A DNA stretch of 64,000 nt, taken from the NCBI GenBank assembly GCA_902552805.1, contig CACDIC010000001.1, forward strand, positions 62,001 to 126,000. Reading direction: 5' to 3'. Below, one piece after another: positions 10,813 through 13,830 of this stretch. Within the stretch, counting starts at the first letter, position 1, and each line of letters opens with the position of its first letter. The notes beneath the pieces are model-generated. The model was not told the origin of the DNA and did not search any database. It saw nothing but the letters and a program-made list of their open reading frames with translations. The translations under genes and the position numbers were made by a program. Origin of the DNA: an uncultured Pelagibacteraceae bacterium. GTDB lineage: Bacteria; Pseudomonadota; Alphaproteobacteria; Pelagibacterales; Pelagibacteraceae.

Positions 10813-11483
10813 ATTTTACCAAAATTTCTTTTAATAGATCTAAATTCTTTAATTATTTTTTTATATTCTTTTTCGGTAAATGCAGGCCATAATTTTTTTT
10901 CGAAAAAAATTTCAGCATATGCAAGTTGCCATAACAAAAAATTACTTAATCTTTTTGTATTGCCAGTTCTTATTAACAAATCTGGATCAGGAATATTATA
11001 TGTTTGAAGATTTTTTTCTAAATTTTTTTCATTAATTTTGCCTTTCTTTTTATAAATTTTTTTGAAAGCGTTTATTAATTCTGTTTTTGAACCATAATTT
11101 AATGCAAGATTAATTTGTAATTTTGAATTTTTAGAAGTTTTTTTCTCTGCTAAATTCAGGAGTTTATTTAGTTTTGAAGAAAATTTTTTATAACCTAAAA
11201 TTTTTATTCTTATGTTTTGTTTATTGATATCTTCAAGTCTGTTATTAAGAAAATTTTCTAACAAATTAAATAAATAGTTTATTTCTTTTTTGGGTCTTTT
11301 CCAATTTTCTGTTGAAAATGCATAAAGTGTTAAAAATTTAATTCTATTTTTAATTGTTTCATTAATAATCTTTTCTACTGTTTTTAGTCCTTCTTTGTGT
11401 CCTGCGTTTCTTGAATTTTTATACTTTAAGCCCCATCTCCCATTACCATCCATGATAATGGCTACATGATTTAATGGGTTCAT
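10809..11483 (-). CDS. uppS: Isoprenyl transferase (undecaprenyl diphosphate synthase)
   Basis: cis-Prenyltransferase that extends farnesyl diphosphate with isopentenyl units to make the C55 carrier lipid used for peptidoglycan and LPS. It carries the Asp-containing signature MDGNGRW (11-17), the YAFSTENWKRP block and the C-terminal DLLIRTGNTKRLSNFLLWQ segment with the substrate-binding Arg residues. Length is 224 residues, typical-short. Its start overlaps the frr stop by 4 bp and its stop overlaps cdsA by 4 bp. Confidence 0.97.
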   Translation of the reverse strand: MNPLNHVAIIMDGNGRWGLKYKNSRNAGHKEGLKTVEKIINETIKNRIKFLTLYAFSTENWKRPKKEINYLFNLLENFLNNRLEDINKQNIRIKILGYKKFSSKLNKLLNLAEKKTSKNSKLQINLALNYGSKTELINAFKKIYKKKGKINEKNLEKNLQTYNIPDPDLLIRTGNTKRLSNFLLWQLAYAEIFFEKKLWPAFTEKEYKKIIKEFRSIKRNFGKI

Positions 11484-12031
11484 ATAGTCATAATTTCTTT
11501 TTCTTTTGAAGAGACTTTTTCATCAACAATTTGAATATGTTTGTCTGTAATGTTTTGAACATTTTTTTCAAAAGATTTTTCTTCATCTTCACCAATTTCT
11601 TTAGCTTTTAAAAGTTTTTTAAGTTCTTCATTTGCATCTCTTCGAATGTTTCGTATGGATATTTTACATTTTTCACCCATAGATTTAATTAATTTTTTTA
11701 ATTCATTCCTTCTTTCTTCATTGAGCTCAGGTATTGGCAATCGGATTAATTGGCCATCAATCTGCGGATTTAATCCTAATTCAGATTTTTTTATAGCTGC
11801 ATCTACTAAAGGAACATTATTTTGATCCCAAACTTGTACATTTATCATCCTTGGTTCTGGGGTTGTAATACTACCTATTTGATTAATTGGCATTTGTTGT
11901 CCATAAACGTCCACTCTAATAATATCTAACATTGCAGCATTTGCTCGACCAGTTCTTAATGATGATAATTCTTTTGAAAAAGCTTCTATTGATTTATCCA
12001 TTTTGAGGCTATGTGATTTTTCATCAAACAT
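11480..12031 (-). CDS. frr: Ribosome recycling factor
   Basis: Splits post-termination ribosomes together with EF-G. The 183-residue protein shows the RRF pattern: LRTGRANAAMLD (28-39), VDVYGQQMPINQIGSI, the PEPRMINVQVWD segment in domain II and the C-terminal three-helix bundle (ISIRNIRRDANEELKK). It abuts tsf with no gap (the tsf stop ends where the frr start begins). In most bacteria pyrH lies between tsf and frr, but here it does not. Confidence 0.97.
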   Translation of the reverse strand: MFDEKSHSLKMDKSIEAFSKELSSLRTGRANAAMLDIIRVDVYGQQMPINQIGSITTPEPRMINVQVWDQNNVPLVDAAIKKSELGLNPQIDGQLIRLPIPELNEERRNELKKLIKSMGEKCKISIRNIRRDANEELKKLLKAKEIGEDEEKSFEKNVQNITDKHIQIVDEKVSSKEKEIMTI

Positions 12032-12883
12032 TTATTCCCCTATTTTAATTCTGCTAAACTCCTTGATCTTTAAATCATTAATAGCAAGTTCTTTTAAAAC
12101 ATCTTGAACTTTTTTCTTTGGTTCCATGACCCAAGCTTGTGTTAGAAGAGCATTTTCCTCTTTAAACTTATTCATCTTCCCTAAACTAATTTTTTTCGCA
12201 ATCTCCTCTGGTTTTCCTGAATTTTTGAGTTCTTCAGTAACTAATTCTTGCTCTTTATCTATAATTGTTTTGTCAATCAAACTGGATTCTAGAGCTAAAG
12301 GATTTGATGCAGCTATATGCATAGATAATTGTTTACCAAATGTTTTCATTCTATCAGAATTATCTTTAGTTTCTAATGATACAATTACAGCTAATTTAGC
12401 CAAATTATCTTTCACTATAGTATGTAAATATTGATAATTTCTTGAAGAAGAATTCGAAATTGTTTTTGTTTTACCAATTGTAATTTTTTCTCCAATCTTA
12501 GCAATTAAAGCAACTAAATTTTCTTCAACAGTAATATCATTTTTCATTTTAGATTTTTTTAATTTTTCAATATCTGAATTATTTTGATTGTTTAATTCAC
12601 TCAATTCTTTTACAAAATTTATAAAATCATCATTTTTAGCAACAAAATCAGTTTCACAATTTACCTCAATAATTGATGTTTTATTTTGATCTCCACTAAT
12701 CGCAACAACTCCTTCTTTTGCATCTCTTGACATCTTTTTAGAAGCTTTTGAAATTCCTTTTACTCTTAAAATCTCAACAGCTTTATCTAAATCACCACCA
12801 GATTCTTTAATTGCTAAATTGCAATCTTTAAATCCTGCACCTGTTGCCTCTCTAAGTTTTTTTACTTTTTCTATATCACTCAT
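12032..12883 (-). CDS. tsf: Elongation factor Ts
   Basis: Nucleotide exchange factor for EF-Tu. The N-terminal UBA-like domain is clear ([18 protein letters not shown], with the TDFV-type block [11 protein letters not shown] near residue 77), followed by the two core subdomains with [10 protein letters not shown] around residue 190. Length is 283 residues, within the normal range. It directly abuts rpsB upstream and frr downstream, so all three share a transcript and, probably, the control exerted by the rpsB leader. Confidence 0.98.
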
Positions 12884-13699
12884 TTAATTTAGTTTTTCAG
12901 GCTTTTTTTTGGAGAATTTTTTATCCAGTTTTTCTCGATCTGTTTCAGCAATAGTTTTAGATTTATCAACTTTTTCTTTTTTCTCGGTATCTTTCTTTGA
13001 TTCAATTATTGGTGCAGTTTTTTTAGCACTTACGATTGTTTCTTTAATAAGATTACAATAGAGATCTATCGATCTTCTAGCGTCATCATTACCAGGTATT
13101 GGAAAATCAATTCCATCAGGATTTGAGTTGCTATCTAGTATTGCAATAATTGGAATTCCTAATTTTACTGACTCTTGAATTGCAAGTGACTCATAATTTG
13201 TATCAATAATAAATACTAAATCAGGAACTTTTTTCATTTCAGCGATTCCCCCAAGTGATCTTTGTAATTTATCTTTTTTCACACTCATTTTTAAAAGCTC
13301 TTTTTTTGTAAATCCTCTATTCTCAGAAACTAAATCTGTCTCTAATTTTTTCAATTTTTTAATAGAATTTGAAATAGTGCCCCAATTGGTGAGCATTCCA
13401 CCTAACCATCTATAATTAACAAAATATTGATCTGTTTCCTTTGCTACTTCTGCGATTGCCTCGGAAGCTTGTTTTTTAGTTGAAACAAACAGAATTTTAC
13501 CATTATTTGAAATTGTCTCGTAAACTTTTTCTAAAGCGATTTTAGTCAATTCTAAAGTTTGGGTTAGATCAATAATATGAATACTATCTCTTTTTCCAAA
13601 TATATATTTCTTCATTTTTGGATTCCATCTTAAAGTCTTATGACCAAGATGTACTCCTGCTTCTAATAATTGTTGAATAGTAACGTTCGGTATTTTCAT
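12884..13699 (-). CDS. rpsB: 30S ribosomal protein S2
   Basis: Small-subunit ribosomal protein uS2. The N-terminus ([18 protein letters not shown]), the [10 protein letters not shown] block and [18 protein letters not shown] are diagnostic. At 271 residues it has a Lys/Glu/Ser-rich C-terminal tail of about 45 residues beyond the core, common in alphaproteobacteria. It is the first gene of the operon and is preceded by a structured leader (13700-13775) that contains a pseudoknot. No strong Shine-Dalgarno is seen; the ribosome-binding region overlaps the 3' strand of the pseudoknot. Confidence 0.98.
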
Positions 13700-13775
13700 A
13701 TTTTTTCCCGGTTAAGCCACCACAGTTATTTCCAATTAAGGACCGGAGGTTTTAAACCAGCAAACTGTGTGCGTG
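13700..13775 (-). promoter_or_regulatory. rpsB leader RNA with H-type pseudoknot
   Basis: The leader upstream of rpsB is clearly GC-richer than its surroundings. Read on the minus strand, it has four interleaved segments: CACAGTT (13769-13763), CCGGT (13746-13742), AACTGTG (13727-13721) and ACCGG (13712-13708). Segment 1 pairs with 3 (7 bp) and segment 2 pairs with 4 (5 bp), so the two helices cross. The second helix ends 8 bases before the rpsB start codon and would cover the ribosome-binding region. A cis-regulatory RNA upstream of the S2 gene has been reported for Pelagibacter, and S2 autoregulation is known elsewhere. It is inferred, not shown, that S2 binds this element and represses rpsB-tsf translation. 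Confidence 0.85.
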
Positions 13776-13830
13776 TTAATTTAAAATTGAAGATTGTTTA
13801 CAAAGAAATTTTGAATTAGACAAGCCTTAA

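Follow-up and report, generated by a model that had tools for sequence, protein, structure and literature searches.

The window (the whole stretch of 64,000 nucleotides that was analysed, from an uncultured Pelagibacteraceae bacterium) carries a string of genes on its minus strand, from 13699 down to 2042: rpsB, tsf, frr, uppS, cdsA, dxr, bamA, a Skp-like gene, fabZ, lpxD, lpxA, lpxI, and lpxB. The gaps between them are at most 36 nt long, and tsf and uppS were identified from sequence and context. The leader of the first gene and its surroundings contain the following features, in the direction of transcription:

13797..13823, minus strand: candidate rpsB promoter, with a -35-like TTGTCT (13823-13818) and a -10-like TGTAAA (13802-13797)
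13763..13773, minus strand: 5' strand of helix P1, with the core at 13769-13763, the outer bases C13773, G13772, and C13771, and a bulged A13770; it holds the conserved C-N-C-A motif
13748..13758, minus strand: P2 hairpin of 3 bp (13758-13756 with 13750-13748), 4 bp in the window sequence; G227 carries a single compensated change here, from U-A to C-G
13742..13746, minus strand: 5' strand of the pseudoknot, CCGGU, in J2/3; a further U-G pair is possible between U13747 and G13707
13732..13741, minus strand: P3 hairpin of 2 bp (C13741-G13732 and C13740-G13733)
13718..13727, minus strand: 3' strand of P1, with the core at 13727-13721 and the outer part at 13720-13718; it holds the conserved G-G-N-G motif, and 4 of the 10 P1 pairs show compensated double changes in SAR11
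13708..13712, minus strand: 3' strand of the pseudoknot, ACCGG, 8 nt 5' of the start codon
13706..13709, minus strand: Shine-Dalgarno-like GGGA, of which G13709 and G13708 also belong to the pseudoknot; the 16S tail ends in GGAUUACCUCCUUU
12884..13699, minus strand: rpsB, encoding ribosomal protein S2 (271 aa), with its ATG at 13699-13697 (PF00318, E 2.5e-87)
12032..12883, minus strand: tsf (EF-Ts), the ORF directly 3' of rpsB, named from sequence and operon context

Just 5' of the leader, most same-genus relatives share a block resembling CTTGT...TTTGTAAAT, which is probably the rpsB promoter. A generic sigma-70 scan called no promoter on the minus strand, this candidate included.

The gene string lacks pyrH, encoding UMP kinase, which is usually found between tsf and frr. 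Here, tsf (12032-12883, minus strand) and frr (11480-12031, minus strand) meet at 12031-12032. In 13 genomes from the genus, including a complete one in a single contig, the profile TIGR02075 had no match above its cut-off and gave just weak matches within larger kinase-like frames. The gene is kept just 3' of rpsB-tsf in 7 out of 8 genomes of the sister family. The window's genus thus appears to have lost the canonical UMP kinase; our literature search found no paper on such a loss in this genus.

The first-pass annotation of the 76-nt leader proposed two perfect helices that cross each other, and both were found where it had placed them. On the minus strand, CACAGTT (13769-13763) pairs with AACTGTG (13727-13721) at 7 out of 7 positions to form the P1 core, and CCGGT (13746-13742) pairs with ACCGG (13712-13708) at 5 out of 5 positions to form the pseudoknot, all by Watson-Crick pairs. 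No other Watson-Crick helix in the leader reaches 5 bp. The second helix does stop 8 nt short of the ATG at 13699, and the leader is, as the annotation also had it, richer in GC than its surroundings: 43% in 13700-13775, against 29.8% in the whole window and 20% in the 55 nt upstream. Only 3.3% of the window's 76-nt stretches have an equal or higher GC content. The two-helix description was nevertheless incomplete, because it overlooked the outer part of P1, P2, and P3. In outer P1, C13773, G13772, and C13771 lie opposite G13718, U13719, and G13720 and flank the bulged A13770.

Taken from a single sequence, this pair of helices barely exceeds chance. Crossing pairs with one helix of at least 7 bp and the other of at least 5 bp occurred in 112 of 3,000 dinucleotide shuffles (3.7%) and in 654 of 6,394 sliding 76-nt stretches of the window (about 10%), and the nested fold of the leader has a z of -0.54 under single-strand folding. 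Since these statistics are unremarkable, the case for the pseudoknot is made by comparison and conservation. The lowest-energy nested fold contains a GCUGG/CCGGU hairpin that displaces the pseudoknot; we dismissed it as an alternative state because GCUGG is unconserved among the other leaders.

The leader is the rpsB motif (Rfam RF01815), an element already published by Meyer et al. in 2009 (PMC2704228). The parts of that paper available to us place its first description in 'Cand. P. ubique', with P1, a 3-bp P2, a 2-bp P3, and a pseudoknot of 5 bp that joins J2/3 to the sequence 3' of P1. The window leader has the same architecture: a covarying P1, a pseudoknot that links J2/3 with the 3' extension, a 3-bp P2, a 2-bp P3, and rpsB directly downstream. 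The first-pass annotation was therefore right that a regulatory RNA upstream of S2 had been described for Pelagibacter, and its claim of moderate novelty was too generous: the pseudoknot and P1 to P3 are part of that description, as far as the accessible text goes. Searched at the gathering threshold, Rfam returned only tRNAs in the whole window. The RF01815 covariance model aligns with the leader over its full length (1-132), with 38.5 bits and an E of 2.6e-6 over 301 nt, 1.5 bits short of the gathering cut-off of 40. Other SAR11 leaders, with similarly short P2 and P3, reach 31-39 bits, so that the low score is a trait of the clade.

To compare leaders, we used searches with the S2 protein to collect the DNA upstream of rpsB from 62 congeneric genomes, from 35 genomes of the sister family, which belongs to the same order, and from a few other Alphaproteobacteria. 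The Rfam model added 90 leaders across Alphaproteobacteria, of which two also belong to the genus and one to a different genus of its family, and the S2 protein led to a further 45, mostly in genomes without a listed match to the Rfam model. The Pelagibacterales set thus comprises 99 leaders, 64 of the window's genus and 35 of the sister family. The motif lies 5' of rpsB in every case with a readable start. An automatic parser of P1 (C.CA/GG.G) failed on the sister family (f2), whose P1 carries an additional base in its 3' part (GGATG), as well as on a few alphaproteobacterial leaders of divergent sequence; these rows were discarded, and their pseudoknots were read again through other anchors.

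Among 19 distinct leaders from the family to which the window belongs, P1, P2, P3, and the pseudoknot are paired in 97.0% of the cells, compared with 33-53% when the partners are slid by one to three columns. Doubly changed cells number 18, against 3.5 ± 1.5 in shuffles, none of which (0 out of 500) reached as many. The compensated changes fall on four pairs of P1, one of P2, one of P3, and none of the pseudoknot. Where pseudoknot columns 29, 31, and 33 have cells that are U-G or unpaired, these are explained by one row of alignment A1 (G071), which is off by one column in the stretch from P2 to the pseudoknot. The CCGGT/ACCGG pairing is in fact invariant, in 64/64 leaders of the genus and 35/35 of the sister family. 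Being constant inside SAR11, it makes covariation in this group uninformative about the pseudoknot.

We thus turned to the other Alphaproteobacteria, where the pseudoknot strands were placed by identity to the consensus, independently of their complementarity. Their pseudoknot cells are paired in 99.1% of cases, a value reached by none of 5,000 shuffles, and compensated double changes occur at four of the five pairs. Pair 1 changes from C-G to U-A (G149, G195) and to A-U (G330), pair 2 from C-G to U-A (G165, G212, G223, G239, G327, G357), pair 3 from G-C to A-U (G238, G258, G261), and pair 4 from G-C to A-U (G254, G274); these are counts of sequences rather than of independent events, spread over many different families. 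The covariation across SAR11 that the first-pass annotation had proposed as a check was hence borne out for P1 within SAR11, whereas for the pseudoknot, invariant there, compensation appears across other Alphaproteobacteria. The frequency of equally long crossing helices in shuffles and window stretches would have suited a coincidence, with both helices being chance complementarity; the compensated changes in P1 and in the pseudoknot refute this explanation, which we consider negligible. On this comparative evidence, the pseudoknot is near certain to be a real structure.

Two alphaproteobacterial regions upstream of rpsB, L229 (from G159) and L262 (from G417), lack a recognisable pseudoknot of the CCGGU/ACCGG type. 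The first retains a P1-like CTCACGCAGG/CCTGCGGCGG and has TTAACGAGAG where the 3' strand of the pseudoknot would be expected.

The base of P1 shows another kind of conservation. The middle pair of outer P1 is unconserved as a pair (unpaired in 6 of the 19 leaders), and the letters beside it, C-N-C-A and G-G-N-G, are conserved across leaders. That these flanking letters are kept while the middle pair varies suggests recognition by a protein. A purely constitutive structure, which would protect the mRNA or set its translation rate with no feedback, is compatible with all the sequence data. We find it very improbable, given that these letters, which lie outside the variable pairs, are strictly conserved and that the homologous leader in E. 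coli is regulated.

In E. coli, S2, helped by S1, represses the translation of rpsB and lowers tsf (PMC10931766). The leader involved (t44 RNA, RF00127) has the same P1 base with a bulge, CACAC/GUGGAGG, and rpsB downstream. Its pseudoknot is at the same place in an exchanged form, GGGGU/ACCCC (a pairing read by eye), and its inner stem is longer than that of the window leader. With E values up to 10 allowed, the RF00127 model did not match the window leader. Repression by S2 and S1 was shown experimentally for t44 in E. coli only; our literature search found no experiment on any SAR11 rpsB leader and no S2-binding test for Alphaproteobacteria. The shared architecture makes S2 control of rpsB likely in SAR11, by analogy with t44. 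A different ligand, e.g., S1 alone, EF-Ts, or a small molecule, could be suspected from the few copies of the motif that precede tsf according to the available part of Meyer et al. (PMC2704228). The position before rpsB in nearly all cases, both there and among the leaders that we collected, together with the response of the E. coli counterpart to S2, makes another ligand quite improbable. A candidate for the co-repressor S1 is the rpsA-like gene at G000:C5:27655-29223 (E 1.4e-116), a match that falls short of the curated cut-off, as do those in most control genomes.

The SAR11 leaders stand apart in the distance between the pseudoknot and the start codon. The spacer between the 3' strand and AUG has a median of 8 nt in leaders of the window's genus and of 9 nt in those of the sister family (two leaders of the genus with a 2-nt spacer are artefacts of an upstream in-frame ATG taken as start, ATGAATATG), and a scan of 4-mers found a Shine-Dalgarno core 3' of the pseudoknot in only 1 of the 99 Pelagibacterales leaders. 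In the 91 other alphaproteobacterial leaders, most of which were selected by the Rfam model, the spacer has a median of 17 nt, and in 83 of them it contains a separate Shine-Dalgarno core. The leader of G227, from another genus of the window's family, is intermediate, with 10 nt and AAGGA. In t44, ACCCC ends 24 nt 5' of AUG and a separate Shine-Dalgarno sequence, AGAGG, lies in between, unlike in SAR11.

The sole complement of the anti-Shine-Dalgarno in the SAR11 leader is GGGA in the window and GGAG in the sister family, and two of its G are common to the pseudoknot, so that the folded pseudoknot and ribosome pairing should exclude each other. With the 16S tail of the window's genome (GGAUUACCUCCUUU), GGGA forms a duplex of -4.3 kcal/mol, tied for the sixth strongest among 56 window genes. 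The idea that the pseudoknot covers the ribosome-binding region is supported for SAR11 specifically. This overlap is read directly from the sequences, as are the helices, their covariation, and their conservation. Because the only Shine-Dalgarno-like sequence sits in the pseudoknot strand, 8-9 nt from AUG, direct occlusion of the ribosome-binding site is plausible in SAR11. The available part of the Meyer et al. description (PMC2704228) makes no mention of such an overlap. We also observed that J2/3 reads (U)ACCUCCGGU in the same-genus leaders L003-L063 and in the window (13746-13751), and that its ACCUCC is identical to the anti-Shine-Dalgarno at the end of the 16S rRNA encoded by the genome itself (UUACCUCCUUU, L195), which may be a coincidence arising from the pairing with ACCGGG.

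These observations may be taken in two ways. The S2 operator may have been compacted in Pelagibacterales, such that the 3' strand of the pseudoknot would itself be the ribosome-binding site and compete directly with the 30S, unlike in E. coli and other Alphaproteobacteria; we put this forward tentatively, at slightly under an even chance. Alternatively, the operator would work as in E. coli, where the ribosome-binding site lies outside the operator and the mechanism of repression is described as unclear, and where a small deletion of a conserved bulge, far 5' of that site, may abolish control (PMC10931766). S2, with S1, would then act on the P1 bulge to block initiation, with the pseudoknot itself not occluding the start. 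The conserved CNCA/GGNG motif is consistent with this, and so is the low use of Shine-Dalgarno sequences in the window's genome: a core precedes just 12.5% of the 56 window genes, so that SAR11 may initiate largely without such pairing and the short spacer and missing separate Shine-Dalgarno may reflect general loss and compaction. We consider this explanation rather unlikely, because in the sister family the sole Shine-Dalgarno, GGAG, has normal spacing and its first two bases also belong to the pseudoknot, which makes pseudoknot and ribosome pairing mutually exclusive there. Since the E. coli site is outside the operator, occlusion is not transferable from that system. The E. coli rpsO (S15) operator likewise combines a ribosomal-protein repressor with a pseudoknot at the ribosome-binding site; its RNA and ligand are unrelated, and its pseudoknot embraces both the Shine-Dalgarno and the start codon (PMC10931766).

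Our preferred reading, which we regard as probable, is that the leader is the RF01815 cis-acting translational operator of the rpsB-tsf mRNA and that in SAR11 the pseudoknot, stabilised by S2, directly blocks the 30S. The RNA at the start of this mRNA would fold into P1 with its CNCA/GGNG bulge region, the short P2 and P3, and the pseudoknot. When in excess over free 30S subunits, S2 would bind the folded leader and stabilise the pseudoknot, probably assisted by S1 as in E. coli. With the only Shine-Dalgarno-like bases held in the 3' strand, 8 nt from AUG, the loading of the 30S on rpsB would be blocked, and the drop in rpsB translation would lower tsf too. We infer that S2 binds in SAR11, that occlusion is the mechanism, and that tsf and the genes downstream are affected. 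Polarity on the latter, which the first-pass annotation had predicted, is possible because the genes form a tight string on the same strand; internal promoters are also conceivable.

In summary, the initial observation was correct and concerns a known element, of which SAR11 has a modest specific variant. With many more genomes than in 2009, the analysis confirms that selection acts on the base pairing of the rpsB pseudoknot throughout Alphaproteobacteria. With the pseudoknot and the ribosome-binding site coinciding, SAR11 offers a clean case for testing the way in which S2 represses the mRNA that encodes it, which is described as unclear even in E. coli (PMC10931766).
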